Notes: generated by a model not told the origin, from the sequence alone. 49,303 nucleotides of DNA from Sulfurimonadaceae bacterium (GCA_016744905.1 JADGDM010000009.1:1-49303); one strand, 5' to 3'. Counted from the first letter of the stretch, positions 34,264 through 49,303 are shown. Translations and numbers: made by a program.

Positions 34264-34265
34264 GA

Positions 34266-34670
34266 CTATTCTTCTAGTAGATTTCTTAGGGTCAAACCAT
34301 CTAAAAAGTTGTCAATTTTACCTTGAAGACGATTTAAAAATGGCCATAACCCACACGTAGATGCCTTGTCTGAAGGACAGTCACTTTGAGAAGTTGCACA
34401 GTCAAATACTTGTGGTGATTTGGCTTCTACCGCACAAAGAATACTTAGAATAGAATTGTCAAGGGTACTCTCTTTTAATGCAAATCCACCATTGACTCCT
34501 TTGAATGAGTCAATAATTTGTGCGCGCGCTAAGGCTTGAAGGATTTTAGCAAGAAAAGATCTTGATATATCAAGTTCACGTGAAAGCGTGTCCGTATCAA
34601 GTGGCTTGTCCGCTTTTGCAAGAACGATAAGAGATAAAAGAGCGTATTCACTAGCGCGTGTCATTAACAT
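34266..34670 (-). CDS. Rrf2 family transcriptional regulator
   Basis: A 134-residue winged-helix regulator. The helix-turn-helix covers about residues 25-50 ([20 protein letters not shown]) and the wing carries GVNGGFAL, both diagnostic. Cys91, Cys98 and Cys106, plus Cys79, lie where IscR/NsrR-type members bind an iron-sulfur cluster, so sensing of iron-sulfur status, oxygen or nitric oxide is plausible. It lies between divergent rpsO and flhA, an order also known from Campylobacter. AAGGA precedes the ATG at 34670; a second ATG two codons on is possible. Confidence 0.88.
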
Positions 34671-34712
34671 CTAAACTTCCTTACTTATTTAATATATTTT
34701 AAATTAGTAGAC

Positions 34713-34718
34713 ATTATA
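34713..34718 (-). promoter_or_regulatory. -10 element of the rrf2-flhA operon
   Basis: TATAAT on the minus strand within GGATATAATG, 42 nt before the rrf2 ATG. It is divergent from the rpsO -10 at 34753-34758, so the two promoters share a short AT-rich control region. Confidence 0.5.
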
Positions 34719-34752
34719 TCCTAGAAAACTTAGTTATTTAAAAATATTCTGC

Positions 34753-34758
34753 TATAAT
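34753..34758 (+). promoter_or_regulatory. -10 element of rpsO
   Basis: A perfect TATAAT 64 nt before the rpsO ATG, leaving a leader of about 55 nt in which S15 could autoregulate; no particular leader structure was established. Confidence 0.55.
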
Positions 34759-34822
34759 TCCGACCACCAAAATAGTCAACAGATGTTGCTTTGGAATTTA
34801 ATATACCAATCAGGAGGTCATT

Positions 34823-35098
34823 ATGGCTTTAGATACGGCGAAAAAAGAAACAATAGTTAAAGAGTACGGTCGCAAAGAAGGCGATACAGGTTCATCAGAA
34901 GTTCAAATTGCATTACTTTCTACAAGAATTGCAGAGTTAACTGAGCATTTAAAAATGCATAAAAAAGATCATGCTTCACGTTTAGGTCTTTTAAAATTAG
35001 TTGGACAACGTCGTCGTTTGATGCGTTACCTTAAGCGTACTCAAAAAGAGTCTTACCTTAAGCTTATTGCTGCTTTAGAAATTCGTGATAACATCTAA
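34823..35098 (+). CDS. rpsO: 30S ribosomal protein S15
   Basis: A 91-residue primary 16S rRNA-binding protein. [24 protein letters not shown] (two blocks, about 20-43) and [14 protein letters not shown] (about 58-71) are the S15 signature. A strong AGGAGG (34812-34817) precedes the ATG. A hairpin follows the stop codon. No pnp gene follows, unlike in E. coli. Confidence 0.98.
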
Positions 35099-35406: not shown

Positions 35407-35826
35407 ATGGCAAATCAAGAAGCAATTAAAGGACTAACATTCCTTGATGATGGAGAATGTTTGTATGATGATATTTACTTACTTTCTGAAACAGACGAAA
35501 AGGGTATCGTTACTTATGCAAGCGAATCGTTTTTAAGAGTAGCAGGTTGGAAGTTTGAAGATTTGATTGGACAACCGCATAATGTGGTCCGTCATCCAGA
35601 TATGCCGCGTGCTGCATTTAAGTCTCTTTGGGATGATGCAGAAGGTAAAGGTTTCTGGACTGGTATTGTTAAAAATGCACGTAAGGGTGGCGGATTTTAT
35701 TGGGTCTTTGCAACTGTATTACGCTCAGTTGATAAAAGTGGCGCTATTAAATACGTATCTATTCGTACCAAACCTTCACGTGAAGAGATAAAAGCTGCGC
35801 AAGAACTTTACGCAACATTAGATTAA
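35407..35826 (+). CDS. PAS-domain sensor protein (Aer/CetB-like)
   Basis: A 139-residue single PAS domain. The block QPHNVVRHPDMPRAAFKSLW (about 58-77) is the hallmark of the Aer/CetB group, whose PAS pockets bind FAD to sense redox or energy state, and GFWTGIVKNARKGGGFYWV follows as usual. It lacks membrane segments and a signalling domain, so it must act through a partner; the next gene, 18 bp downstream, encodes the receptor. This mirrors the split CetA/CetB energy-taxis receptor of Campylobacter jejuni, except that this partner is also soluble. AGAGG precedes the ATG. First gene of the operon. Confidence 0.85.
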   Translation: MANQEAIKGLTFLDDGECLYDDIYLLSETDEKGIVTYASESFLRVAGWKFEDLIGQPHNVVRHPDMPRAAFKSLWDDAEGKGFWTGIVKNARKGGGFYWVFATVLRSVDKSGAIKYVSIRTKPSREEIKAAQELYATLD

Positions 35827-35844
35827 GAAGAGAGGAAGATAGAG

Positions 35845-37731
35845 ATGGCATTAGTTAAAAAAAGTGGAAATAGCGCAGTAGTATCGAACGGAGCTGGTGG
35901 TGGCGATAAGCGTCGTCAACGTACACTAGCAAAACAACAACAAATTTCAGAGAGTATCTCTGGTGTTGCAATAACTATTCTTGATAACGCTCAAGAGAGT
36001 GTAAGTGCAATTGAACAGCTTAAGTCTTCAATGGAACAGATTGCAACAGCAGCTGAAGAGAACAGTGGTGCAAGTGAACAAGCACTTAAAAATGTACGTG
36101 GAATTAATAGTAACATTAGTCGTATGACGACTACTATTAATACAGTAATTACTTCAACTCTGGCTGCTGGTGATAATATCATGAATGCAGTAGGTACAAT
36201 TAATGACTCAGTAGATGGAATGATTGAAGCAGTTGTTGTCGCTGAATCATCATCAAAAAAATCAGAAGAGTTAAAAACATCGTCTGAAAACATTGGTGAA
36301 GCAGTTGGCTTTATTGCAAAAATTGCAGATCAAACAAATCTTTTAGCATTGAATGCAGCCATTGAAGCAAGTCGTGCTAAAGAGCATGGTAAAGGTTTTG
36401 CAGTTGTGGCTGATGAAACTAGAGCTTTAGCTGGTGAGAGTGAAAAAAATGCAGAATTTATATCTGAACTGGTCAATAAAATTCAAGAGAGTATTGATAA
36501 GATTATTAAAAGTATTGTTAATACAACAGGAATTATTGATGCGACTGGTAGTAGTGGTAAAGGGCTTAGCCTTAAAATGGAAGAGCTAACAAAAATTGCT
36601 GTATACACGGTTGAAGCTTCAAGAAGTATCAGCTCATATACTCAAGATTTAGGAACTATTTCTCAGCGTGTTAGTGATGGAAGTCAAGATATCGCTGCTG
36701 CTTCAACAGATATTGCACTCTCTGTTGAGAAGACACTAAATGGCATTGATGTCCAATCGAATGCATTGTCACAAACTGAAGATGATATTAAAGAACTTTC
36801 AAATCTATCTGAAGAGTTAAAATACTCAACAGATACTACAAAATCAGCAGAAGACATTGCCTCTTCAGCTGACGCTATTGGTGGCTCTATGGAAGACATC
36901 CAAAGTGCACTTGAAGAAGTTACAAATGCCTTAAATACTATTGAGTCATCTTCTCACACAACCAATCAAAGTGCTTTAAGTAACCAAGAATTAGTTGAAG
37001 GTGGCTTAGTTAATGCAAAAGATATTGATGCATTGATCGCAATTTCTCGTAAGAACTTTGATCTTCTAAAAACTTCATTTGGTGAAGTTCGAGCTTCGCT
37101 TATTCAAATTAAGGGTGACTTTACAGATTCTATTGCTGAGGGTAATCAAGCCAGTGGTGAGTTAGAGATTATTGTAAAAGAGACAAAAAGTGTTGATAAA
37201 ACTGTTGGTAATATTTCAAATTCAATTATTCAATTAAATATGTTGGCAATTAGTGGTTCTATCGAAGCTGCACGTGCGGGTGATTTTGGTAAAGGCTTTG
37301 CTGTAGTTTCTGCTGATATTAGAAACTTGGCCAAAGATTCTGAGCAAAATACGGATAAAATCAACGACACTATTGAGTCAATGAATGCAGAAATCGTAAC
37401 AGTTAACACAGACTGGTTAGATCTTCTTCATGGTCAAAATAATGGAAGTAAAAATATTGATTCATTGATTAATGATATTAATAAAATTACGGATATGTTG
37501 GTAGACCTTCTTGATAGATTTACAGGATTAAAAGCTATTAATGATCAAAATATTGAAGGCATTAATCAAGTACTTATTGGTATTAGTGAAATTCAAAAAG
37601 CAGTTGAACTCTCCGCTAGAAATGCTATGGAGTCAAGAAAAGCAAGTGAGTTGATTATTGATACTATTTCACATATTAGTGAGGGTGTTGAAGAGTTGGC
37701 TGTTATGGCTGATGAGTTACAACAAGGATAA
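35845..37731 (+). CDS. Soluble chemoreceptor with two signalling domains
   Basis: A 628-residue, almost wholly helical methyl-accepting protein with no transmembrane segment and no ligand domain. It contains two receptor tips: the first is canonical (QTNLLALNAAIEASRAKEHGK, in part residues about 164-184; GFAVVADE follows), the second, 300 residues later, is diverged (LNMLAISGSIEAARAGDFGK, about 463-482; GFAVVSADIRNLA follows). Each has about 130 helical residues on both sides, so two full hairpins exist in tandem. Such double-headed receptors are represented by DosM of Vibrio cholerae, which bridges two CheA/CheW layers in cytoplasmic arrays. The PAS protein upstream probably supplies the sensory input. 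AGAGGAAG precedes the ATG region. Confidence 0.88.
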   Translation: MALVKKSGNSAVVSNGAGGGDKRRQRTLAKQQQISESISGVAITILDNAQESVSAIEQLKSSMEQIATAAEENSGASEQALKNVRGINSNISRMTTTINTVITSTLAAGDNIMNAVGTINDSVDGMIEAVVVAESSSKKSEELKTSSENIGEAVGFIAKIADQTNLLALNAAIEASRAKEHGKGFAVVADETRALAGESEKNAEFISELVNKIQESIDKIIKSIVNTTGIIDATGSSGKGLSLKMEELTKIAVYTVEASRSISSYTQDLGTISQRVSDGSQDIAAASTDIALSVEKTLNGIDVQSNALSQTEDDIKELSNLSEELKYSTDTTKSAEDIASSADAIGGSMEDIQSALEEVTNALNTIESSSHTTNQSALSNQELVEGGLVNAKDIDALIAISRKNFDLLKTSFGEVRASLIQIKGDFTDSIAEGNQASGELEIIVKETKSVDKTVGNISNSIIQLNMLAISGSIEAARAGDFGKGFAVVSADIRNLAKDSEQNTDKINDTIESMNAEIVTVNTDWLDLLHGQNNGSKNIDSLINDINKITDMLVDLLDRFTGLKAINDQNIEGINQVLIGISEIQKAVELSARNAMESRKASELIIDTISHISEGVEELAVMADELQQG

Positions 37732-37734
37732 CAC

Positions 37735-39114
37735 ATGCAGATCGAAGAGGTACTAATCGTAATTAACAATAATGTCAAATATGGCATAGATACATCTGTG
37801 ATCCAGCAGATATTACATGTACCTAATTTGACAGCAATTCCTTATGCTCCAAAATATACTAAAGGGCTATGCTCAATTAGTGGCTCTGTTATCAGTGCTG
37901 TAGATTTTAACCTTTTATTAAATGACAAATGCGTAGATTTGAAATCAGATCGTTCACGTGCTATTGTAATTAATAATGAAGGTACCTTGAGTGCATTGCT
38001 TGTCTCAGAAGTCATTAATTCTATTACATTAGACACTACGCTAATGGATCAAATAGACAGTGGTGACAGTGCTAATAAAGGTACTTATAAACATGCAGAT
38101 GGTCTTATACAGATTTTAGATATATTTGAACTGTTTAATCTAATTGAAGCTGAAAAAATAGATTCAAAAGAGGTTTTAAATGGTGTGAATAGGGATAAGG
38201 TTAGTGAATCAAAAAATATTGATTTACAACGATATCTGGTTTTCTTAATGGGAGAAGAGCAGTTTGCATTAAAAGTGGATTACCTTCAAGAGATTATTGC
38301 TGTTCCTTATATGTTTACATATATTGCAGGTTCACAGAATTATGTCGAAGGTATGATCTCTCTACGTGATGAACTTTTAGTTGTTAATGATGTTCGATGT
38401 TATTATAACTATGCTGTTAGTAAAAGTGACAAAAATAAAATTTTAGTTGCAGAAATTAATAAGAAAAAACTGGGTTTAATTGTTGATGAAATTATAGATA
38501 TAAAAGATTTTGAAAATTCTAGTATTGATGATATGCCAGCTAATTTTCAAGATGAAAAAGTTTCCGGTGTTATACATGATGGTGATCAGCTGATCTCTAT
38601 TCTAGGTGAAAATATCTTAGTGAAAATGATGAAAGAAAATGATAGGTTTGCAGAAGACACACAACGAGAAACAGAGTTAAATGAAGAGAAAGATATAGAA
38701 TTTGAAGTAGTTATTTTTAAGTTACACGATATTGAGTATGCACTAGATATAGATCATGTTGATGAAATCATTGATATGGCACATATTACTGCAGTAGTAG
38801 ATACTCCTGATATAGTAGAAGGTTTAATTAATATTCGCGGTAAAATTGTTACTATGGCTTCCTTATTTAACTCATTAGGGTTAGAGACAAAAATGAATAC
38901 GACTCAGAAAATATTAATTTGTGAAGTTGGTTCGAATAAGATTGGTTTTAATGTTGATCAGATTACCGATGTAATGGGTGTATATCGGAACGATATTAAA
39001 GCTGATAGTGAAGAAGATTCATATTTTTCAAATATATTACACTTAGACAGTGGCAATCGCCTAGTCTTGATGGTTGATATTGAAAAAGTGATGAGAATAG
39101 AGGAAACATTATGA
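37735..39114 (+). CDS. Triple-CheW adaptor
   Basis: A 459-residue protein made of three consecutive CheW-like beta-barrel domains, about residues 1-140, 165-305 and 325-459. The second and third show the standard pattern (YLVFLMGEEQFALKVDYLQEI, then VEGMISLRDELLVVND; VVIFKLHDIEYALDIDHVDEI, then VEGLINIRGKIVTM). The first is more diverged. CheW couples receptors to CheA; a triple version could crosslink several receptor or kinase sites in an array. No kinase or receiver parts are present. AAGGA precedes the ATG; it lies 4 bp after the receptor gene and overlaps cheB as ATGA. Confidence 0.85.
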   Translation: MQIEEVLIVINNNVKYGIDTSVIQQILHVPNLTAIPYAPKYTKGLCSISGSVISAVDFNLLLNDKCVDLKSDRSRAIVINNEGTLSALLVSEVINSITLDTTLMDQIDSGDSANKGTYKHADGLIQILDIFELFNLIEAEKIDSKEVLNGVNRDKVSESKNIDLQRYLVFLMGEEQFALKVDYLQEIIAVPYMFTYIAGSQNYVEGMISLRDELLVVNDVRCYYNYAVSKSDKNKILVAEINKKKLGLIVDEIIDIKDFENSSIDDMPANFQDEKVSGVIHDGDQLISILGENILVKMMKENDRFAEDTQRETELNEEKDIEFEVVIFKLHDIEYALDIDHVDEIIDMAHITAVVDTPDIVEGLINIRGKIVTMASLFNSLGLETKMNTTQKILICEVGSNKIGFNVDQITDVMGVYRNDIKADSEEDSYFSNILHLDSGNRLVLMVDIEKVMRIEETL

Positions 39115-40184
39115 GTAAAAAAGTACTAATAGTTGATGACTCCGCACTGGTAAGAAAACAGTTAAAAGAGTTGATTTCCACACTAGACTTTGAGATTTCA
39201 ATTGCTAAAAATGGTAAAGAAGCTGTGGATATGGCAATAGCAGAACAATTTGATGTTATCACTATGGATGTTAATATGCCTGTAATGGATGGATTGACGG
39301 CAGTTAAAGAGATTATGGAAGCAAGACCAACAGCAATTTTGATGGTGAGTTCACTAACTTCTGCTGATGCAACGACAACGATGGATGCTTTAGACCTTGG
39401 TGCAATTGATTTTATAGCAAAGCCTGGTACGATGAATATTGGTAAAAATGAGAATAGTGAAGAAATTCTACAAAAAGTGACTTCATTAAGTCGTATTCCA
39501 AAAAGAAGATTACAACCTTCTACAAGACGTAGAACACCAGCACCAAGACGTGAACGTCCAGCGCGAACTGAACGAGACAATACACTTACTGTGAAGACGA
39601 GCTCTTTAGATGTTAAAAAAGTTGTACTGATAGGTTCCTCCACTGGTGGGCCAGGTTTGATTGAACAAATTTGTGCGGCACTTCCTGAATCTTATCCTTA
39701 TCCAGTTTGTATAGTTCAGCATATGCCAGCACAGTTTACAGCTGCTTTTGCTACAAGATTAGACAGAGTTAGTGCCTTACAGGTTCAAGAAAGTTCTAAT
39801 AATATGGAACTTTTACCGGGTAATATTTACGTGGCTAAAGGGGGGACACATTTACACTTTGCTAAAAAAGTCTCAGGAAAAATTGTTTTACGAGAAGATA
39901 CAGGAAGAGAGAAACGATTTTTTATGCCAAGTGTCGATGAAATGGTATTCAGCGCACTGGATATTTTTGAACCACGTCAGATTATAGGTGCTATTTTAAC
40001 GGGCATTGGTGATGATGGAGCAGCAGCCTTTGTTAAAGCTAAAAAAGGTGGTGCCTATACTTTAGGTGAAAGTGAAGAGAGTTGTACTGTTTATGGGATG
40101 CCTCGAGTAGCATTTGAAAATGGTGGAATTAGCGAGCAGTTACCATTTAATAAAATTTTAAAAACCCTAGCAACATTAAAATAA
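39111..40184 (+). CDS. cheB: Chemotaxis protein-glutamate methylesterase CheB
   Basis: A 357-residue adaptation enzyme. The receiver (1-120) has the acidic pair 9-10, phospho-acceptor Asp53 and a KPG motif at about 104. An unusually arginine-rich linker (about 124-155) leads to the methylesterase domain, with catalytic Ser in IGSSTGGP (about 173-180), His in VQHMPAQFT (about 202-210) and Asp in LTGIGDDGA (about 298-306). It removes methyl groups from, or deamidates, receptor glutamates when phosphorylated by CheA. It overlaps the triple-CheW gene by 4 bp. Confidence 0.96.
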   Translation: MSKKVLIVDDSALVRKQLKELISTLDFEISIAKNGKEAVDMAIAEQFDVITMDVNMPVMDGLTAVKEIMEARPTAILMVSSLTSADATTTMDALDLGAIDFIAKPGTMNIGKNENSEEILQKVTSLSRIPKRRLQPSTRRRTPAPRRERPARTERDNTLTVKTSSLDVKKVVLIGSSTGGPGLIEQICAALPESYPYPVCIVQHMPAQFTAAFATRLDRVSALQVQESSNNMELLPGNIYVAKGGTHLHFAKKVSGKIVLREDTGREKRFFMPSVDEMVFSALDIFEPRQIIGAILTGIGDDGAAAFVKAKKGGAYTLGESEESCTVYGMPRVAFENGGISEQLPFNKILKTLATLK

Positions 40185-40193
40185 GGATAGACG

Positions 40194-40817
40194 ATGGCAT
40201 TAATTAAAAAGCATGTTGAACAAATTGAAGATGAATTTCCATCATTTTCTAGTTTGGATGAAGCTGTTGAATTTTTTAATAGTAATTGTGATTTTGATTG
40301 TCAATCACATGTTATTGATGAGATGCAATCTTTAGAAGGTTATGCAAAACAGTATGTTGAATTTTTAAAAGATCCCACTACCTCAAAAGAGATCTCTTCA
40401 AGAATGGCATCGACGCTCTCTAGTATGGATCCAAAATTAGCGCCTATTGAAGAGATTATGGAGTTGCTGAAACTCAATAATGCTTATACCCGTAATTTAG
40501 GTATTTCAATGTTACGTGACTTTGGTGACTCAATCAAATATTATATTGTTAAGTTTTTAATTGGAGATGATAGAGATCTCCGAATTTTTGCTATCAATGT
40601 CCTCGGAGATGTGACTTTTGCAGAATCTCGAGATATGCTCTTAGAACTTTTAGAGACGGAAGAAGATATTAATGTTGCTATGACGGCAGTAGATTACCTG
40701 GCAGAAATTGGTGAAATAGAAGATATTAAACTTTTGAAATCTCTTAAAGAACGTTTTGTTGATGATGCTTATGCCGCTTTTTCTATAGACAATTGTATAA
40801 AAATGATTGAAGGATAG
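40194..40817 (+). CDS. HEAT-repeat protein of the chemosensory operon
   Basis: A 207-residue all-helical protein. From about residue 85 onward repeats such as NAYTRNLGISMLRDFGDSIKYYIVKFL and DRDLRIFAINVLGDVTFAESRDMLLELL (blocks about 93-160) fit HEAT repeats, scaffolds for protein-protein contacts. The N-terminal 80 residues are helical without a known domain. It is cytosolic by prediction. HEAT proteins occur in some non-flagellar (ACF-type) chemosensory operons; here it sits between cheB and cheR, so a role in receptor modification or array assembly is possible but unproven. Its stop overlaps the cheR start region (TAGTGATG). Confidence 0.75.
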   Translation: MALIKKHVEQIEDEFPSFSSLDEAVEFFNSNCDFDCQSHVIDEMQSLEGYAKQYVEFLKDPTTSKEISSRMASTLSSMDPKLAPIEEIMELLKLNNAYTRNLGISMLRDFGDSIKYYIVKFLIGDDRDLRIFAINVLGDVTFAESRDMLLELLETEEDINVAMTAVDYLAEIGEIEDIKLLKSLKERFVDDAYAAFSIDNCIKMIEG

Positions 40818-40819
40818 TG

Positions 40820-41650
40820 ATGAGCCGATTACTTTCTAAAGAAAATTTTATTAAAATTGGTGAGTATATTTATCGTAAAAGTGGTATCTATTTAGAAGAA
40901 GAGAAGCACTTTGATAAAATCTCGAAATATATTGATAAACGTGCGCAAGAGATTGAAGTAGACTCTTTTCGTAAGTACTTTTTTAAACTCCGTTTTGAAG
41001 ATAAAGAAGGCAGTGAGTTTCAAGAATTAATGAATGCAATTACGGTTAATGAGACATATTTTTTTAGAGAAAAAAACCAGTTTGAAGTTTTAGTAAATAG
41101 TATATTGCCTGAGCTGCACGCATCTAAACCCGCTGGAGTGCCATTAAGGATTTTATCTTCTCCCTCATCAACAGGAGAAGAACCTTACTCAATTGTACTG
41201 CATATTGTAGAAGAAGGAAAGGTTGTTGAAGAGCGCGATATCGAAGTAGTTGGAATTGATATTGACTCGACAGTGATTAAAAAAGCACAAGCTGGTTTCT
41301 ATAGTGATCGTTCTATTCATGCGATTCCAAAGGATATCTTACACAGATGGTTTGTGAAAAAACCTTTAGGGTATCAACTGGGTGAGGACCTCTTAGGTAG
41401 TGTTGATTTTAGTGTTCGTAATGTATTTGATAAAGCTGATATGCGAAAACTAGGTAAGTTTGATGTTATTTTTTCAAGAAATATGTTGATCTATTTTGAT
41501 GATGCAAGTCGTAAAGAAGTGGCAATGACCTTCTATGACATGTTAAATCCAGGTGGCTATGTTCTTTTAGGACACGCTGAATATATGAGCCGTATTGTTT
41601 CGGTTTTTAAAGCCAAGAAAGTTGGCGACACATTAATTTATCAAAAATAA
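40820..41650 (+). CDS. cheR: Chemotaxis methyltransferase CheR
   Basis: A 276-residue S-adenosylmethionine-dependent enzyme that methylates receptor glutamates. It has the short helical N-terminal domain and the Rossmann domain, with TVNETYFFRE (about 76-85), the SAM-binding LRILSSPSSTGEEPYSI (about 108-124), VVGIDID and FDVIFSRNMLIYFD (about 214-227). The glycine-rich motif usually reads SAxCSTGEEPYS, so SPSSTGEEPYS is a slight variant. The ATG at 40820 is well placed after AAGGA; a GTG immediately before it is possible. No VWF or TPR extension is present. Confidence 0.95.
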   Translation: MSRLLSKENFIKIGEYIYRKSGIYLEEEKHFDKISKYIDKRAQEIEVDSFRKYFFKLRFEDKEGSEFQELMNAITVNETYFFREKNQFEVLVNSILPELHASKPAGVPLRILSSPSSTGEEPYSIVLHIVEEGKVVEERDIEVVGIDIDSTVIKKAQAGFYSDRSIHAIPKDILHRWFVKKPLGYQLGEDLLGSVDFSVRNVFDKADMRKLGKFDVIFSRNMLIYFDDASRKEVAMTFYDMLNPGGYVLLGHAEYMSRIVSVFKAKKVGDTLIYQK

Positions 41651-41659
41651 GGAAAAAAT

Positions 41660-42031
41660 ATGCCATTAGTAATATTCGTAGACGATAGTGAAACAGCATT
41701 AGCATCAACCAGAATGGTTACAAGCAGTATGCCAATCGAGGTTAAGCAGTATACAGAAGCACAAACAGCATTAGCAGAGATTCAAGCGGGAATGACGCCT
41801 GATTTAATCATCACTGATTTAAATATGCCTGTGATGAATGGTTTTGAGTTTTTAGCGGAAATTCGTAAACACCCAACTACTAAGAGAACACCAACATTGA
41901 TGTTGACAACTGAAACAAAAGATGAGATGAAAGCACAAGGTAAAGCTTTGGGGCTAACTGGATGGATTGTTAAACCGTTTAATCCAGCACAGTTAAAACA
42001 AGCAATTACAAGAGTATTGCGTTTAAGTTAA
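41660..42031 (+). CDS. CheY-like response regulator
   Basis: A 123-residue stand-alone receiver with Asp8-Asp9, phospho-acceptor Asp53 (IITDLNMPVMNG), Thr in LMLTTE and Lys in VKPF (about residue 105). All phosphorylation residues are present. It differs from the second receiver downstream, so the operon may run two phospho-branches, for example output and phosphate sink. Its stop overlaps an ATG of the next frame. Confidence 0.92.
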   Translation: MPLVIFVDDSETALASTRMVTSSMPIEVKQYTEAQTALAEIQAGMTPDLIITDLNMPVMNGFEFLAEIRKHPTTKRTPTLMLTTETKDEMKAQGKALGLTGWIVKPFNPAQLKQAITRVLRLS

Positions 42032-42042
42032 TGGAGTTACCT

Positions 42043-42438
42043 ATGAAGTTTCTAAACTCAATTAATGATCTGTTGGATCATATTAAAAATGTTGAAAATG
42101 ATACGATTGAACTTTCACGTGACTCATCTATCAAAATAGCATCTTTTATCGAGCGGAACAAATTAGAAGTAGATGATGATGTGGCGGAAGCCTTACAGTA
42201 TCAAGATATTATCTCTCAACAGTTAAGTGCAACTATTGAAGCGATAGAGAGTGTTCAATCAAGTATTAATCTATTTGAACACTCGTCAAAGAATGATGAA
42301 GTGATAGCCATTGAAAGTATTGGTAAGTTACATAAAAAGTTAAATGATTCATTAGAAAAAGCAAAAGATAGAAGAAAAGCATTTTCAGGTAAGGTATTGG
42401 CTGAAGATGATGTAGAAGATGGAATAGAATTTTTTTAA
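42043..42438 (+). CDS. Minimal CheZ-like phosphatase
   Basis: A 131-residue helical protein that I assign tentatively to the CheZ group. LQYQDIISQQL (about 51-61) matches the CheZ catalytic segment, with Asp55 and Gln59 in the D-x3-Q arrangement that positions water for CheY-P hydrolysis. The acidic, hydrophobic tail (EDDVEDGIEFF) resembles the C-terminal CheY-P docking peptide of CheZ, joined by a charged flexible linker. It is much shorter than E. coli CheZ (214 residues). The start at 42043 follows GGAG; an ATG at 42031 overlaps the previous stop but has no ribosome binding site. It lies between two CheY genes, as expected for their phosphatase. Confidence 0.6.
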   Translation: MKFLNSINDLLDHIKNVENDTIELSRDSSIKIASFIERNKLEVDDDVAEALQYQDIISQQLSATIEAIESVQSSINLFEHSSKNDEVIAIESIGKLHKKLNDSLEKAKDRRKAFSGKVLAEDDVEDGIEFF

Positions 42439-42450
42439 AAGGTTGATGTT

Positions 42451-42816
42451 ATGTCTGTAGTAATGGTAGTAGATGATTCGAAAACAGTAAGATCATATCA
42501 CGGATCGATTTTAGGTCAACTTGGAATTGAAGTTGTAGAAGCTGAAAATGGTATGGAAGCGTTAGAACGCTCTTTAGATAATAAAATTGATCTTTACCTT
42601 GTAGATGTAAATATGCCGATTATGGATGGATACTCATTTGTTCAAGAACTAAGAAAGCAAAGTAATAACACGGATACTCCTGTTATTATGATTACTACAC
42701 AAGCAAAAGATATTGATAAAGAAGAAGCTTATAAAATGGGTGCAAGTTTGTTTGAAACTAAGCCAATTAAACCAGACCAATTAAAAGCATATATACAGTT
42801 ATTGATTAGAGATTAA
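42451..42816 (+). CDS. cheY: CheY-type response regulator
   Basis: A 121-residue single receiver with Asp8-Asp9, phospho-acceptor Asp52 (LVDVNMPIMDG), Thr in IMITTQ and Lys in TKPIKP (about 103). It lies between the CheZ-like gene and cheA and is the likely direct substrate of this CheA. Whether it targets the flagellar motor or another output cannot be told from sequence. Confidence 0.92.
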   Translation: MSVVMVVDDSKTVRSYHGSILGQLGIEVVEAENGMEALERSLDNKIDLYLVDVNMPIMDGYSFVQELRKQSNNTDTPVIMITTQAKDIDKEEAYKMGASLFETKPIKPDQLKAYIQLLIRD

Positions 42817-42827
42817 GGGATTTAAAA

Positions 42828-45620
42828 ATGGATGCATTATTAGAACAATTTTTACAAGAAGCACGAGAAAATCTGGCTTTTATTGATCAAAATATAGAAG
42901 ATATCGGTGGCGATGATCCTGAACTGCTTAATTCAGTTTTTAGAGCAGCGCATACACTTAAAGGTGGATCGGGTATTGTTGGATTTGAATCTGTTAAAAA
43001 TATTACGCATCACGCAGAAGATCTACTTGACATGTTGCGCGCTGGAAAAATAGATTTTGATCCTGCTATGGTTGAAGTTTTATATGATGCATTTGACGAA
43101 GTTTTAAATCTTGTTGAAGCGGCTGAAGAGAGTGAAGAAATTGTTGATGCAGATGAAGATCGTGTAAATGAAATTGTAGGCTTACTCAGTGCCCAAATGG
43201 GTAAAGGTGATGAAGTAGAAGTCTGGAGTGCACCATTTGATACAGGTGTTGATAGTAGCTATGTCATTAATATGCCAATGCCATATTTAAAAACTATGCA
43301 GCAAAATTTGGTCTATCAATTAGGCGAGATAAATCAAGATATTATCTCCGCACCACAACTGTATGCAGTTGTTTTTGATATTGATGAATCTTGTATGGTT
43401 TATGGGAATGATCCTATTTATACACTTTCCCTTTTAGGAGAAAAAGTACTACATATACATACTTGTATGGGAGAAACCTCTGCCAAGTCAGTTTTAAGTG
43501 GTCTTGATGATCCAGATGGTCTTCTGCTTGCTACTGAAATTACAGCATTTATTTATACTACTTATGAAGATATTTCAGATGTATTGTTTAATTTTTTAGA
43601 TGAATTACAGTTTATTCCTCTTGATGTAGAAAAGCTTTTAAACATTACTGTAGGTGAAGAAAATCACCAACTTGATGTGCTAAAAGAGTTGAGTCAAAGT
43701 GCTGCGGCACATTTGAAAAGTACTGATATTGAATCTTTGAGTAATGAATTAGAAAAAACGATAGGTATGATAGGTTCAGATACTATTCAAGCTTCTCAAC
43801 TACAACGTGTTTCTGATGTTATAAATGTAATGGACAGTAGTGATTATACTTTTTTACTAAAGTTATTTAATTCGCTCCCTCAAGGTATTGTGTTTTCTAA
43901 AATGGAAGAGGTAAGTTCGGTAGAAACAGAAGAAGAAACTTCATCTACAGTCATAGAAGTAGATGAACATATTCGTACAAGTATTGATGAAATATTACTT
44001 CAACAAAAAAGATCTTTAGAAATTAATGAGGATGAAAAAAATGTCACCCGAGTTGCTGCTATCTTAGAAAAAATAAGACCTTATTATAACTCTATGCCTA
44101 GTGCTTTGGACTCTAAAGAGAATATTGTTTCTTGGATAGCTTCTGTATTAAACGGGTCTGAAGAACTTAATGAAGTTGTTGAAATACCTAAGGCTGAAGT
44201 AGAAATTGAACCAAAAATTGAAGAAAAAGTTGTTGTGGAAAAAGTGACAGTGGCTCCTAAAATTAAGATAGAAACACCTGTTAAGAAAGTTGAAGTTATT
44301 TCAAAAGCAGCTGAAATACCAGATACTACAGTTGATGAAGTCGTTAAAGTTGAAGTTGTTAAAGATGCAAAAGAAACACCAAAGACAGCATCAAAAGAAC
44401 CTGCGAAAAAGCCAGTGATTGGTAAAACAGTTAAAATTGAACAAGAGTCTATTGATAGTTTGATGAATATTATTGGTGAGTTGCTTGTTGCAAAAAATTC
44501 ACTTCCATATCTTGCCGATACGGTGGCTGATATGAATACAGATATGATTAAACGCGCTATTATGGAAAAATATACTTTCATTAATCGTTTGTCTGAGCAA
44601 CTACAAGATTTGATTATGGGTATGCGTATGTTACCTATCTCTTATGTGTTTGATCGATATCCTAAGTTAGTACGTGATATTTCTAAAAATATGGGAAAAA
44701 AAGTAAAACTTAATATGGAAGGTGGAGAGACAAAGCTTGATAAAAATATGATTGAGATGTTGGCTGACCCGATGATCCATATTATGAGGAATTCACTTGA
44801 TCATGGTGTTGAGATGCCAGATGTAAGAGAACAAAAAGGAAAAAATGCTGAGGGTACTGTAAATTTACGTGCTTTTGCACAGTCTGATAAAATTATTATT
44901 GAAATAATAGATGATGGAGCAGGTATTAATGTTGATAAAGTTATCAATAAAGTTCTTGAAAAAGGATTATTGACACATGAACAAATTGACGCGATGGGTG
45001 ATAATGAACGTGCTGAGTTAGTGCTTCTACCTGGCCTATCTACTGCGGATGAAATTACTGAATATAGTGGTCGTGGAGTAGGTATGGATGTTGTTAAAAA
45101 ATCAATAGAAGGTTTTGGTGGTAAAATAAGTATCACTACCAAGGCGAACCAAGGTACTGTTATTACACTTGCTATCCCTGTTTCTCTTGCTGTTTCAACT
45201 CTCTTACATGTCTCTATGGATGCTATTCACTATGGCTTCCCGATGGACAATGTGGCAGAAACTGTTAAAATTGAAAAAAGTGAAATTGAGTATCTTCATA
45301 GTGAACCTTTTGTCTATATTCGTGGAGAAGTTATCCCATTACTTTTTATTGAGTCTATGCTTGATGCTAGCGCGCTGGAAAATAAGCCACTATCTATAGT
45401 TGTTTTAAATATTAAAGATAACTTGGTTGCAGTTGTCGTAAATGAGTTACTTGGTCAACTTGATGTTGTGCAAAAACCTTTAGAAGGTTTAATGGAAAAT
45501 CATCCTCTATTTAGTGGCACCGCACTACTTGGAAATGGTCAAATTATTATGGCAATTGATCCTCTAGGATTACTCTCCATTGCGCATGAGATTAAATCTT
45601 TAATAGAGCAAGCAAGTTAA
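42828..45620 (+). CDS. cheA: Chemotaxis histidine kinase CheA
   Basis: A 930-residue kinase. Domains in order: Hpt (1-110, phospho-His42 in AAHTLKGGSG); an alpha/beta segment at about 130-270 that may be a P2-like regulator-binding domain; a helical stretch (270-440); an acidic/lysine-rich linker (445-530); dimerisation domain (starting near KIEQESIDSLMNIIGELLVAKN, about 540); ATPase with N box HIMRNSLDHGVE, G1 DDGAGIN and G2 GRGVGMDVVK; and a CheW-like C terminus (about 780-930). All catalytic motifs are intact. E. coli CheA has 654 residues, so the middle is greatly expanded. It is the hub of this operon. Confidence 0.95.
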   Translation: MDALLEQFLQEARENLAFIDQNIEDIGGDDPELLNSVFRAAHTLKGGSGIVGFESVKNITHHAEDLLDMLRAGKIDFDPAMVEVLYDAFDEVLNLVEAAEESEEIVDADEDRVNEIVGLLSAQMGKGDEVEVWSAPFDTGVDSSYVINMPMPYLKTMQQNLVYQLGEINQDIISAPQLYAVVFDIDESCMVYGNDPIYTLSLLGEKVLHIHTCMGETSAKSVLSGLDDPDGLLLATEITAFIYTTYEDISDVLFNFLDELQFIPLDVEKLLNITVGEENHQLDVLKELSQSAAAHLKSTDIESLSNELEKTIGMIGSDTIQASQLQRVSDVINVMDSSDYTFLLKLFNSLPQGIVFSKMEEVSSVETEEETSSTVIEVDEHIRTSIDEILLQQKRSLEINEDEKNVTRVAAILEKIRPYYNSMPSALDSKENIVSWIASVLNGSEELNEVVEIPKAEVEIEPKIEEKVVVEKVTVAPKIKIETPVKKVEVISKAAEIPDTTVDEVVKVEVVKDAKETPKTASKEPAKKPVIGKTVKIEQESIDSLMNIIGELLVAKNSLPYLADTVADMNTDMIKRAIMEKYTFINRLSEQLQDLIMGMRMLPISYVFDRYPKLVRDISKNMGKKVKLNMEGGETKLDKNMIEMLADPMIHIMRNSLDHGVEMPDVREQKGKNAEGTVNLRAFAQSDKIIIEIIDDGAGINVDKVINKVLEKGLLTHEQIDAMGDNERAELVLLPGLSTADEITEYSGRGVGMDVVKKSIEGFGGKISITTKANQGTVITLAIPVSLAVSTLLHVSMDAIHYGFPMDNVAETVKIEKSEIEYLHSEPFVYIRGEVIPLLFIESMLDASALENKPLSIVVLNIKDNLVAVVVNELLGQLDVVQKPLEGLMENHPLFSGTALLGNGQIIMAIDPLGLLSIAHEIKSLIEQAS

Positions 45621-45630
45621 GGATTAGTAG

Positions 45631-46407
45631 ATGACAAGTTATATTTTATTTAGAGTGAATAACCTTAAGTATGCTTTTCCATTAGAAAATATACATCGTA
45701 TAGATATGGCAAAAGATGTGACAAAGAGTAACTCTGGAGAAAAGACATCTGAGGGGATTATGAGTTTTGAAGATGATGTTATTGAAATTTTTAGTTTTCG
45801 CGCAATGATTGGTGCGCAAGTGTATAGTGATTATCTTAAAGCATTATTTGAAGATTTAAAAGGACAACATAAGGCTTGGGTGGATGCCTTGATTTATGCG
45901 GTTGAAAATAGTAGTGAATTTACCAAAACAACCAATCCTCACATGTGTCACTTAGGAAAATGGATAGACTCTTTTAATCCTTATAGTGATGAGATATTAA
46001 ATATATTAAATCAATTAAGCACACACCATAAAAAGTTACATTCAAGTGCTATTGATGTTCTTGAAAAACGTGAAAAGAGTTTAGAAGAAGCATTAGATTG
46101 GATTCATACCCACGTAAAAGATATATATACTCAGACAATTTGGCATATAGAAGAGATGGCAGCAAAATCGGATGTTATTGCTCATGAGTCTCAAAAGCTT
46201 ATGATTGTCCTAGATGGCGATAATAAGTTTGGTATCCATGTTGATTCTATTGATGATATAGTACATATTGAAGATCAAGAAATTAATAGTAATGAAAATT
46301 TGGTTAGAGATGGTGAATACTTACGTGTTGGAGGTGTTTTAAAACATAAAGATGAGTTGAGTTCGCTCATTACTAAAATCAAATGCCATTCAAGCCTGAA
46401 AGAGTAA
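45631..46407 (+). CDS. CheW adaptor split by a CZB zinc domain, copy 1
   Basis: A 258-residue protein. Residues 1-62 (YILFRVNNLKYAFPLENIHRI, EGIMSFEDDVIEIFSFR) are the first half of a CheW barrel, and about 188-255 (KLMIVLDGDNKFGIHVDSID) the second half. Between them lies a chemoreceptor zinc-binding (CZB) domain that fits the family pattern exactly: His80-x2-Trp83, Cys106-x-Leu-Gly-x-Trp111, His133-x3-His137. CZB domains sense zinc and, through the zinc-thiolate, hypochlorous acid. Zinc state could thus change adaptor geometry and CheA activity. The gene starts 10 bp after cheA and is a tandem paralogue of the next one. Confidence 0.85.
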   Translation: MTSYILFRVNNLKYAFPLENIHRIDMAKDVTKSNSGEKTSEGIMSFEDDVIEIFSFRAMIGAQVYSDYLKALFEDLKGQHKAWVDALIYAVENSSEFTKTTNPHMCHLGKWIDSFNPYSDEILNILNQLSTHHKKLHSSAIDVLEKREKSLEEALDWIHTHVKDIYTQTIWHIEEMAAKSDVIAHESQKLMIVLDGDNKFGIHVDSIDDIVHIEDQEINSNENLVRDGEYLRVGGVLKHKDELSSLITKIKCHSSLKE

Positions 46408-47175
46408 ATGATGATAGATTTAATTATATTTAAAGTTAAAGACTCTACCTATGCCGTTGATATAGAAAATATTCAGCGTATAGTACAGTCTGGAGAGTTG
46501 ACGCATATTCCTAATGCACATCCCTTTGTTGATGGAATGATGTCATTTGAAGATAAGGTAATAAAAATTATTAACTTTCGTAAGATGTTGAGTTTTGAAA
46601 GTTATAATGTTGAACTCAATGCAAAGTTTAAAGAGTTAGAAGAGCAGCATACTGTCTGGATAGAGGCACTAAAAAAGAGTGCAGAAAACTCTATGACTTT
46701 TAATAAAACTTTAGATCCTCATGCCTGTGAATTAGGTGTGTGGTTAGATGCCTTTACATCATATGATGATGAAGTAAGCAAGGTACTAAAAGAGCTGAAC
46801 TCTTATCATAAACGTTTGCATAAAAGTGGGCATGAAGTATTGGATCTAGCCAAAACCGATAATAGTTTAGCCCTCGCTTTTTTCAATAAAGATGTGATGG
46901 AAATCTATGTAAATACTATGCGTTGTTTAGATACGTTTATTAACAATTTAGAAAAGGTGTCATCTTCTTTACAAAAATTACTTCTTTATCACACAGATGA
47001 GGGAGACTTCGCTATAAAGGTTGATACTATTTTAGATATTGCCCATGTTGAAGAGAGTGAGCTTAAAAGATCTACAGATAAAAGTCAAAGTAGTGAGTTC
47101 TTAGAACTTGATGGTGTTTTAGAATTGAATGGAACACTAATAAATGTTATAAAATCAATTAAAATGCCCAACTAG
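46408..47175 (+). CDS. CheW adaptor split by a CZB zinc domain, copy 2
   Basis: A 255-residue tandem paralogue of the preceding gene with the same nested plan: CheW first half (1-62), CZB (about 75-170) and CheW second half (about 185-253). Zinc ligands are His81 (with Trp84), Cys107 in CELGVW, and His134 and His138. The two copies have diverged widely outside these motifs, so they probably have distinct partners or zinc affinities. The ATG directly follows the previous stop codon; the second codon is also ATG. No Shine-Dalgarno of its own is obvious, consistent with translational coupling. Confidence 0.85.
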   Translation: MMIDLIIFKVKDSTYAVDIENIQRIVQSGELTHIPNAHPFVDGMMSFEDKVIKIINFRKMLSFESYNVELNAKFKELEEQHTVWIEALKKSAENSMTFNKTLDPHACELGVWLDAFTSYDDEVSKVLKELNSYHKRLHKSGHEVLDLAKTDNSLALAFFNKDVMEIYVNTMRCLDTFINNLEKVSSSLQKLLLYHTDEGDFAIKVDTILDIAHVEESELKRSTDKSQSSEFLELDGVLELNGTLINVIKSIKMPN

Positions 47176-47184
47176 GAGTAGTAT

Positions 47185-47454
47185 ATGTCAATGAAAATAG
47201 AAGAGTCAAAAGTTACTTTTGATTCAGTAATATATGAAGATGAAATAGAACCTTTGAGAGAATATCTGCAGACTCGTGCGCCAGAGAGTGTTGATTTTGA
47301 TTTTTCAGCCTGTGATGATCTTCATTTAGCTGTCATGCAATTAATAATGGCGTATAAAAAACTTTATACTTGTAGTTATGAGTTTGGTGATAAAGATAAG
47401 TTATATAAAATGACATTGGAAGGTTTCAATATTAGTGAAAACTGTTGTAGTTAG
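47185..47454 (+). CDS. Small STAS-like protein
   Basis: An 89-residue protein with no membrane segment. DFDFSACDDLHLAVMQLIMAYKKL (blocks about 37-60) looks like the beta-alpha signature of STAS domains (DLS...sSaGlqlLlalk), with Asp in place of the usual phospho-acceptor Ser/Thr region, followed by a final beta-alpha pair. STAS proteins bind nucleotides or act as phospho-switched partners. AGGAG precedes the ATG. It ends 20 bp inside the ParA-like gene. The family call is tentative. Confidence 0.5.
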   Translation: MSMKIEESKVTFDSVIYEDEIEPLREYLQTRAPESVDFDFSACDDLHLAVMQLIMAYKKLYTCSYEFGDKDKLYKMTLEGFNISENCCS

Positions 47455-48178
47455 TAATAGAAAAGGTGGGTCGGCTAAGACGACTACCGCTGTAAATTTA
47501 GCAACTGAATTGGCAAAAAAACACTCTGTTTTATTGATTGATTTTGATACACAAGGTCATGCTTCTATTGGAGTAGGGTGTGAGCCTTCTGAATTAAGAG
47601 GTGCTCATTCAATATTTTTAGGGCAAAATTTAAGTGAAAGTTTCATCCCTACGGTACATAAAAACTTAACACTTGCTCCTGCTTTGGAATTTTTTGATGT
47701 TTATGAGTATGCTGATCTTCGAGGGGTACTAAAAAATCGTTTTAAACGTGAACATATTGCAGATTTCTTTGATTATTGTATTATTGATACTCCTCCTACT
47801 TTTGATGCAATGTTGAAAAACTCTTTAGAGGTTGCTGATGCGGTTGTTATCCCATTTGTGCCACACCATCTGGGGGTAGTGGCAGTCAATCAGATGTTTA
47901 GAGCAATATTGCAAAGCGCTAACTCTTTCAATCAAAAGATTGCAGAAATCGGGATTTTACCAGTCATGTTTAATCCTCATATTAATGAACACAAAGAATC
48001 TTTAAAAAAGGTGGAAACACTTTTTGGTTCTTCTAAACTTTTTACACCTATTGGGGTAGATATTAAACTATCTAAGATGTTTGAATTCGGTTCGCCTATT
48101 GTTCTAAATGAGAAACGCTCAAAAGGAATGAAAGACTATAAACTATTTACTACTGAGCTATTAAAGCGCCTCTCATGA
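47435..48178 (+). CDS. ParA/MinD-type ATPase of the chemosensory operon
   Basis: A 247-residue deviant-Walker ATPase. KGGSAKTTTAVNLA (about 11-24) has the signature first lysine, DFDTQGHAS (about 37-45) is the Walker A-prime region and IIDTPPTF (about 117-124) the Walker B. ParA relatives encoded in chemotaxis operons (ParC of Vibrio, PpfA of Rhodobacter) position polar or cytoplasmic chemoreceptor arrays, so array segregation is the likely role. The start is GTG at 47435, 20 bp inside the preceding gene, with GGAAGG upstream. No parB or parS lies nearby, which argues against plasmid or chromosome partition. Confidence 0.88.
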   Translation: MKTVVVSNRKGGSAKTTTAVNLATELAKKHSVLLIDFDTQGHASIGVGCEPSELRGAHSIFLGQNLSESFIPTVHKNLTLAPALEFFDVYEYADLRGVLKNRFKREHIADFFDYCIIDTPPTFDAMLKNSLEVADAVVIPFVPHHLGVVAVNQMFRAILQSANSFNQKIAEIGILPVMFNPHINEHKESLKKVETLFGSSKLFTPIGVDIKLSKMFEFGSPIVLNEKRSKGMKDYKLFTTELLKRLS

Positions 48179-49303
48179 CTTATGACGAACTTTTAAATTC
48201 TGAACTTAACATATTAATATGTGACGCAGACGAGAGAGTTCTTAAACGAATGAATGTTTGGATACATGCCATGGGTAAATCTGTCTATGCAACTTCAAGC
48301 GGGATAGAAGCTTTAGAGATTTATAGTACTCAACATATTGATATTATTATCTTATCAGATGATATTAATGAAATTGGTACGATTGAGTTGATAGAAAAAA
48401 TCAAAGAGTATAATGAAAATCAAGTTATTGTATTGATTATTAAAGAGTTTAAGTCAAATGTTTTTAAACGTTCGATAGAACTTAGTGTTGATAAGTATCT
48501 CAACTCTCCTATTGATGCTAAAACACTGCTTAATGTAGTTGAGACACTGGCCAAAGAGAAAATTTGGCAACGTGAATTTAGTGAGCAAAAAATTCTTTTA
48601 GAAGAGTATAAACAAGCTATCGATAAATCATTTATCGTTTCTAAACACAATGCTGATGGAACCATTATCTTTGTTAATGATGCTTTTTGTACATTGATGT
48701 CACTCAAACCTGATGAAGCTCTTGATGGTGGAAAAAATCCTTTAGCACATGAAGATGTAGTAGAATCAAGAGTTTTATGGGAAACCTTGGGCAAGAAAGA
48801 AATTTATAAAGGTCGTCAGGACTATATCGTTAATGGGCAAGAGCTTATTGTTGATATAAGTGTAGTACCTATTTTAAATGCTGATAATGAGATTGATGAG
48901 TTTATTGTATTTATGAATGATGTTAGTGAAGTAGTTCATGCAGGTAAAAAACTGCAAGAAGCAAAAGTAAATCAAAAACTTGATGCATTACGTACTCAAA
49001 AAACTCATAATGAAGAGATAAATAAGATGAAAGACTCTTTTCTTACGGTCTTTACACATGAGCTAAAAACACCACTTAATGCTATTATTAATTTCTCAGA
49101 ACATGTTACTAAGCACTTGGGAAAAGAAGATTTTGCTAAGAAAGATCGATTAGTTGGCGAAGTTGTTGAAATTAAACAAGCCGGCGTAACTATCTTAGAT
49201 ATGATTAATAATGTTATGTCTGCTATAAAATTACGTGAAAGTAAAGATATATTTGATCGTAGAGAACTGTTCTTTAATGATATTATTACTGAGGCTATTC
49301 AGA
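48175..49303 (+). CDS. Receiver-PAS-histidine kinase, cut by window end
   Basis: An open frame of 376 codons running off the right edge, so the product is incomplete. Residues about 10-125 are receiver-like (ILICDADERV; DIIILSDDINEIG) but the phospho-acceptor position aligns with Ser61 or Asp62 and the conserved KP near the end is replaced by SP (YLNSPID), so this may be a pseudo-receiver. A PAS domain follows (about 145-265, GTIIFVNDAFCTLMSLKPDEAL), then a coiled linker and a HisKA domain with the H box FTHELKTPLNAI (about 295-306). The ATPase domain must lie outside. The ATG overlaps the ParA stop as ATGA, making it part of the operon. Confidence 0.85.
   Translation, partial: MTYDELLNSELNILICDADERVLKRMNVWIHAMGKSVYATSSGIEALEIYSTQHIDIIILSDDINEIGTIELIEKIKEYNENQVIVLIIKEFKSNVFKRSIELSVDKYLNSPIDAKTLLNVVETLAKEKIWQREFSEQKILLEEYKQAIDKSFIVSKHNADGTIIFVNDAFCTLMSLKPDEALDGGKNPLAHEDVVESRVLWETLGKKEIYKGRQDYIVNGQELIVDISVVPILNADNEIDEFIVFMNDVSEVVHAGKKLQEAKVNQKLDALRTQKTHNEEINKMKDSFLTVFTHELKTPLNAIINFSEHVTKHLGKEDFAKKDRLVGEVVEIKQAGVTILDMINNVMSAIKLRESKDIFDRRELFFNDIITEAIQ

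Follow-up and report, generated by a model that had tools for sequence, protein, structure and literature searches.

The F9 class of chemosensory systems is defined by two proteins, the receptor DosM and a triple CheW (PMC9321776). In Vibrio cholerae, the arrays of this class consist of two baseplates lying 35 nm apart and held together by DosM (PMC9321776, PMC7534058, PMC3964821). According to a published survey, hardly any DosM protein has a sensor domain, so that extra sensory proteins are needed, and the Campylobacterota it covered had only partial F9 sets, in Nitratiruptor and one Nautilia (PMC9321776; also PMC9239204). While the structure of the F9 array is known, reviews describe its input, its output and its purpose as unclear. 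Here we analysed a stretch of 49,303 nucleotides from a Sulfurimonadaceae bacterium (GCA_016744905.1, JADGDM010000009.1:1-49303; hereafter the window), which belongs to contig 76 in a draft genome of 3.0 Mb. An earlier note, made from the sequence alone, had proposed that an operon starting at position 35407 of the window may build a cytoplasmic, double-layered chemosensory array. We found that this operon encodes both F9 signature proteins, and its assignment to the F9 class, that of the V. cholerae double-layer array, is well supported, because the receptor, the triple CheW and the gene order all match.

The operon comprises 15 open reading frames (ORFs), all on the plus strand, from 35407 to the end of the window at 49303. 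They are tightly packed with overlaps, as had been noted, the successive junctions measuring +18, +3, -4, +9, -1, +9, -1, +12, +11, +10, 0, +9, -20 and -4 nt (range -20 to +18 nt). A Pfam scan of the window proteins recovered the announced set of a PAS protein, a double-hairpin receptor, a triple CheW, CheB, a HEAT protein, CheR, receivers, CheA, CheW-CZB proteins and a ParA ATPase. The span given for the operon was too short, since the window cuts it: it runs on to about position 51094 of contig 76, with a conserved receiver gene beyond the window. The F9 signature is carried by DosM (35845..37731, 628 residues), with its two signalling domains, and by CheW3 (37735..39114, 459 residues), a concatenation of three CheW domains (three Pfam stretches, E=1.4e-67). 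The same cluster provides its own CheB methylesterase with a receiver (39111..40184), CheR methyltransferase (40817..41650), two CheY-type response regulators, RR1 (41660..42031) and RR2 (42451..42816), and a CheA kinase of 930 residues (42828..45620) with Hpt, H-kinase_dim, HATPase_c and CheW domains, all identified by Pfam. Their order is that of the plasmid-borne F9 clusters of Sphaerotilus (locus L151) and Methylobacterium currus (L152).

The survey of gene order across Campylobacterota that the earlier note had called for showed that the arrangement PAS-DosM-CheW3-CheB-HEAT-CheR-RR1-(CheZ-like)-RR2-CheA-CheW(-CZB)-small protein-ParA-(kinase)-receiver protein is shared by about 20 other genomes. 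Those with a name are mostly Sulfurimonas and unclassified Campylobacterales assemblies, which suggests a Sulfurimonas-like organism. It is permuted in L145 and L146, and single genes are absent from some clusters. As the same order recurs so widely, a chance assembly of these genes can be dismissed, and the gene set and its order represent a real, conserved and well-identified system. DosM was encoded by 82 of the 228 family genomes (good genomes, 48 of 139; genera, 11 of 18) and by only 11 of 397 genomes in a phylum-wide sample. The CheW3 of the window was 30-43% identical to those of its relatives, and a scan of viral contigs with this protein gave no match. Upstream of the operon, window positions 32056-35098 encode what we take to be FlhA, an Rrf2-type regulator and ribosomal protein S15. 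Many relatives carry the operon at this one site, after flhA-rrf2-rpsO in the same arrangement, which points to vertical inheritance within the family. Since the published survey had only partial F9 sets from Campylobacterota, the finding that the full class is common in one family of this phylum extends it, as far as the literature shows.

Comparison with other F9 clusters separated an apparently old core from lineage-specific parts. The operon shares with the plasmid clusters of Sphaerotilus and Methylobacterium the backbone DosM-CheW3-CheB-HEAT-CheR-RR-CheA-small protein(-ParA), as well as the DosM spacing described below. The HEAT protein, the small protein and, through Methylobacterium, ParA look like old F9 parts because they recur there. 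The lineage-specific parts are the genes for the PAS protein, for a separate CheZ-like protein and for CheW-CZB, none of which occurs in these proteobacterial clusters; the latter close with a gene for a membrane receptor that is missing here. The Deferribacterota F9 clusters (Denitrovibrio, L045; Seleniivibrio, L044) resemble the operon in having ParA, DosM, CheW3, CheB, HEAT, CheR and CheA; they differ by an insert in DosM, by an Hsp70-like gene after ParA (in Denitrovibrio between ParA and DosM, L045:6142-7644) and by a weakly STAS_2-like gene. V. cholerae cluster I, compared by its published description only, has in common DosM, the triple CheW, CheB, CheR, CheY and CheA and a cytoplasmic, presumably double-layered array; the present operon additionally has the Aer-type PAS, CheW-CZB and CheZ-like genes and has no gene for a second receptor. 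The structural idea thus matches a known class, and what is new are the parts for sensing, for adaptors and for positioning, together with the geometry of DosM.

Pfam detected two MCPsignal stretches in DosM (173.7 bits) and no other domain, and no membrane helix was predicted, in agreement with the membrane-free receptor with two signalling hairpins described before. The tips lie at about residues 156-200 and 456-500 (positions of about 181 and 481). An AlphaFold 2 (AF2) model was all-helical (pLDDT 88.8), with a helix break at 328-330, and Foldseek matched it to the Thermotoga chemoreceptor hairpin 2ch7_A (TMt 0.82 over 301 columns). Together with the two MCPsignal matches, this indicates that the second hairpin is also a receptor tip, contrary to the condition on this hairpin that the earlier note had named as refuting its proposal. 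The tip sequences (ASRAKEHGKGF..DETRALA in one, AARAGDFGKGF..ADIRNLA in the other) depart from the 22-residue tip common to nearly all other receptors of the genome, and a scan for methylation sites gave one strict site only, E71/E72.

The spacing of DosM was almost invariant. A conserved KQQ near the N-terminus is separated from tip 1 by 152 residues, tip 1 from tip 2 by 300, and tip 2 from the end by 147, and these values were found in 24 of the 26 distinct proteins compared (28 rows, two genomes being represented twice; 148 at the end in Methylobacterium), the 24 spanning Campylobacterota and alpha- and betaproteobacteria. The most distant of them share only about one third of their residues, yet are equally spaced. 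The two Deferribacterota proteins read 152/402/147, i.e. they bear a 102-residue insert, within which a CZB domain lies in Denitrovibrio. From phylum to phylum, DosM thus keeps its length to the exact residue, which is what a ruler set between two plates would require. By simple counting, about 150 residues flank each tip on each side, compared with 154 (22 heptads of 7 residues) in a 44-heptad receptor. When DosM was compared with itself, tips excluded, an offset of 300 gave the best match in Sphaerotilus (1.11 per residue, against a mean of -0.30 and a standard deviation of 0.27), in Methylobacterium and, weakly, in the window protein, but not in the DosM of L147; internal identity at this offset was 26-27% in the Sphaerotilus and Methylobacterium proteins. 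DosM is most simply read from this self-match as one receptor hairpin fused in tandem to its own copy. Besides the two tips, conservation peaked in three patches, at about residues 21-35, 321-342 and 616-628. In an extended rod, all three would come to lie at the same level, halfway along it, making the mid-rod a third conserved site of DosM.

We think it likely that the operon is a complete F9-class system building a membrane-free, two-layered array. In this model, one DosM dimer, its two hairpins fused end to end, would span two opposing CheA/CheW plates as a rod of fixed length, and CheW3 would tile each base plate. CheA would phosphorylate RR1 and RR2, CheB and CheR would adapt the receptors, and the CheZ-like protein would take off the phosphate. 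The F9 signature proteins, the gene order, the two receptor tips and the 2ch7 match over 301 columns all agree with such a double layer. Two points weigh against it: the arrays of V. cholerae depend on a second receptor, which the operon does not encode and which bears on the earlier idea of a self-contained array, and a straight helix of 300 residues predicts about 45 nm between the tips, versus 35 nm between the V. cholerae plates. The latter gap is partly expected, because the plates sit behind the tips, and the two values may agree.

The AF2 model also permits an arrangement in which DosM is folded back on itself at the break in the middle of the rod; both tips would then sit in one layer and cross-link receptors within a single plate; the break lies almost midway between the tips, and the half-lengths of 152/150/150/147 residues suit either arrangement. 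For V. cholerae DosM, however, the published fit is an extended rod whose two ends each bear a tip (PMC7534058), and an end-to-end fusion suits two opposing layers. We prefer the extended rod because of this tomography and consider the folded one highly improbable. Alternatively, DosM and the adaptors might not form a cytoplasmic array of their own but enter, or cross-link, the membrane arrays that belong to the two other CheA systems of the genome. The genome does contain two other CheA genes (three in total) and about 20 further receptors, and incomplete F9 sets have been proposed to rely on a CheA from a different class (PMC9321776). Yet the operon has its own CheA, CheB, CheR and regulators, and the divergence of the DosM tips from those of nearly all other receptors also speaks against mixing, which makes this alternative very unlikely.

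If the operon builds a two-layered array, signals would enter it not via DosM, because DosM has no sensor domain, but via a flavin adenine dinucleotide (FAD)-binding PAS protein (redox or energy state) and via CheW-CZB (zinc or oxidant). The PAS protein (35407..35826, 139 residues) is encoded directly upstream of DosM wherever the contig of a relative reaches. Its best PDB match was the PAS domain of E. coli Aer (8dik, E=3.2e-32), and its residues R62, H63, D65, W75 and R120 align with Aer R57, H58, D60, W70 and R115. All the key FAD residues (Aer R57, H58 and D60) are kept, as judged from the known FAD-binding residues of the Aer PAS (PMC2628428, PMC9668731). The redox input suggested before is strengthened by this Aer/CetB type, and the stand-alone PAS is probably an FAD-binding input for the redox or energy state. 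In Campylobacter, CetB is likewise a separate PAS protein, serving the receptor CetA (PMC2628428). Several further CetB-like proteins are encoded in the genome. The receptor differs, however, from CetA and Aer: DosM has neither a membrane helix nor, according to Pfam, the HAMP domain found in the receptor partner of Aer/CetB-type PAS domains. As Aer-type PAS domains are thought to signal via HAMP, its absence counts against the PAS as an input to DosM. Judged from its domains, the pair is not a strict CetA/CetB pair and, DosM being devoid of HAMP, its coupling must differ from the HAMP route.

The second candidate input is provided by two CheW proteins with a CZB domain (45631..46407, CZB 45868-46059; 46408..47175, CZB 46648-46842). 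Pfam found CheW in two stretches plus CZB, and the AF2 model of the second protein (moderate confidence, pLDDT 72) showed strands, a helical bundle at 66-188 and strands again, indicating that the CheW strands flank the bundle in a nested fold rather than an end-to-end fusion. Foldseek matched this model to CheW 2ch4 over 247 columns and the insert to the CZB domain of DgcZ (3t9o, TMt 0.76). The zinc ligands H/C/H/H (three histidines and one cysteine) are complete in both window proteins and in most relatives, which supports the zinc or oxidant input proposed earlier, and CheW-CZB is probably such an input at the base plate. Opposed to this are relatives with a plain CheW in the same slot (L033, L036, L041, L140 and L142) or with a CZB insert lacking the full ligand set (L025 and L146), and zinc sensing is accordingly not essential to the system, as far as these sequences tell. 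CheW-CZB is a known architecture, accounting for 1.4% of CZB proteins (PMC8262984), and CheWS, another fusion of a sensor domain with CheW, senses S-adenosylmethionine at the array (PMC10653840); here the sensor domain is nested in the CheW fold and linked, at the gene level, to DosM arrays. CZB and DosM are associated elsewhere too: in Denitrovibrio the domain is part of DosM, as mentioned above, and in two other Campylobacterota genomes it is part of a CheW adjoining DosM, in clusters without CheW3. With these proteins the operon makes the input of an F9 array testable, and it supplies named candidates for input (FAD PAS, CheW-CZB), shut-off (CheZ-like protein), positioning (ParA, DosM tail) and output (receiver protein).

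Positioning is probably the task of the ParA/MinD-type ATPase (47435..48178; Pfam AAA_31, CbiA), whose deviant Walker A motif, KGGSAKTT, contains the signature lysine. Its identity to the ParA encoded in the F9 cluster of Methylobacterium is 31% (E=1e-40). In the proposed mechanism, ParA would position or segregate the array over the nucleoid, with the tail of DosM, of the HEAT protein or of both as an activating peptide. DosM starts with a basic tail (35845..35931) made of MALVKK, a variable S/A/G linker and KRRQRTLAK, and the extreme N-terminus of the HEAT protein (40194..40817, 207 residues; Pfam HEAT_2), MALIKK, matches it and is kept in nearly all relatives. The HEAT gene also occupies the same slot in the Sphaerotilus and Methylobacterium clusters. 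The start pattern M-[AGPS]-[LF]-[VIML]-[KRNTH], which was written after the sequences had been seen and is descriptive rather than a blind test, was present in 58 of 612 locus ORFs, 56 of them DosM or HEAT; the alpha- and betaproteobacterial DosM proteins keep it (MPLVKK, MALVTK). Activators of ParA-type ATPases share short basic N-terminal extensions, that of TlpT in the cytoplasmic cluster of Rhodobacter sphaeroides included (PMC7993993). By this analogy, the tails of DosM and HEAT are plausibly a ParA-activating peptide. The R. sphaeroides cluster resembles the present one in its cytoplasmic double-baseplate array, its ParA homologue PpfA and the basic extension of TlpT. To our knowledge, it has no DosM or CheW3.

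Other findings do not favour such a role. A search of the whole genome for starts of the MALVKK type gave six sites, three of which begin long ORFs, those of DosM, of HEAT and of an unrelated PAS protein (MALIRK), so that the motif is not specific to chemosensory genes. Furthermore, the cluster of Sphaerotilus has the DosM tail without an adjacent ParA, and that of L037, from Campylobacterota, has no ParA gene. The persistence of the tail in these two clusters would suit another explanation, in which the tails bring the array to DNA without an intermediary, or bind some other partner that both proteins share, and ParA has a different task. There is a precedent in FrzCD of Myxococcus xanthus, which binds the nucleoid by a basic N-terminal tail (PMC5716589). 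Against this stand the retention of ParA at one and the same position in almost every Campylobacterota cluster and in the F9 cluster of Methylobacterium, and the fact that basic N-terminal tails are a recurrent mark of ParA activators (PMC7993993); we regard this explanation as a real possibility, though short of probable. The combined proposal that the scaffold DosM is itself the cargo adaptor of ParA through its N-terminal tail, sensing having moved to the base-plate CheW-CZB proteins and the flavin PAS, is put forward tentatively and is, in our view, somewhat unlikely as a whole.

Both response regulators retain the phosphorylation site. They lack W58 and K119 (CheY numbering), having L58 and A119 in RR1 and V58 and Y119 in RR2, and carry W (RR1) or F (RR2) at position 106; the W58/K119 set and residue 106 have been used to predict FliM binding (PMC9321776). 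These residues are consistent with the output beyond the flagellar motor that the earlier note had considered. An output other than direct motor switching, and hence no direct control of FliM, is favoured because RR1 and RR2 lack the FliM-binding set and the genome has two other CheA genes. The operon might nevertheless be a branch of flagellar chemotaxis for energy taxis that feeds the motor directly, as the Aer/CetB-type PAS, the adjacency of flhA-rrf2-rpsO in many relatives and the conservation of CheY K91 in RR1 would suggest. This we consider unlikely: besides the missing residues, the adjacency to flhA is weak, with rrf2 and rpsO in between, and F9 has been argued to be an improbable main motility system (PMC9321776).

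The best candidate for the output within the operon is its terminal receiver protein of 440 residues (about 49772-51094 of contig 76; L021:4773-6095), which combines a receiver with an unassigned C-terminal part of about 300 residues. It is kept in most relatives, with a nearly invariant LDDIFDF tail, and is followed by a GGDEF-EAL gene in L022, the one relative inspected for this. A search of the PDB with this protein returned receivers only and no match for the C-terminal part. Like the CheZ-like protein, it represents a further conserved part of the operon.

The CheZ-like protein (42031..42438, 135 residues) partly deserved its label: no Pfam CheZ match was obtained and a PDB profile search with its family gave no credible match, but a motif and a profile support it. 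Its LQYQDIISQQ helix fits the catalytic pattern [FY]QDxxxQ (QYQDIHRQ in the F3-type CheZ of relatives), and hhalign aligned the family with this F3-type CheZ (E=8e-5, probability 61). Q56, Q58, D59, Q63, Q64, F134 and F135 are invariant in the alignment, the protein ending in an EFF tail. The receptor closing the proteobacterial F9 clusters (L151:18879-20153, L152:19891-21174) carries a CheZ-like helix with QFQD close to the C-terminus, its last residues being IELF, so the putative CheZ-like function may have become separate here, or have been joined to a receptor there. Acidic-aromatic C-terminal tails recur elsewhere. Apart from the CheZ-like protein (IEFF, window 42421-42435), the terminal receiver protein (DDIFDF, L021:6074-6095) and this receptor, they occur on other chemosensory proteins of the present genome, in a 155-residue protein of another CheA cluster (ELDFF, L150:12952-13419) and at L190:1706-3364 (EDLFF). 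A docking tail shared by chemosensory proteins is possible from these sequences.

Two further genes were re-examined. The small protein that had been called STAS-like (47185..47454; the fold is putative) had no Pfam or PDB match, leaving that label unproven. It is homologous only to the same-slot protein of other F9 clusters (E=4e-7 with the Sphaerotilus protein, encoded after CheA), and H47, Q52 and G80 are invariant in the alignment. The accessory gene described as a hybrid kinase (48175..49303, ORF end at about 49386) indeed encodes receiver, PAS and HisKA domains in an ORF of 403 residues, but in this assembly its ATPase domain is in another frame, in an overlapping ORF of 142 residues (about 49337-49765). 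The gene is absent from several relatives; where present, the kinase is one ORF of 503-517 residues, and one long ORF was found in L027, L031 and L034. The frame break is either a real lesion or an assembly error. Lastly, a second type of DosM system was observed in Campylobacterota (L147:12029-16805 and L148:4626-12445), with CheA, DosM, CheW-CZB, CheB, CheR and a response regulator, and without a triple CheW.

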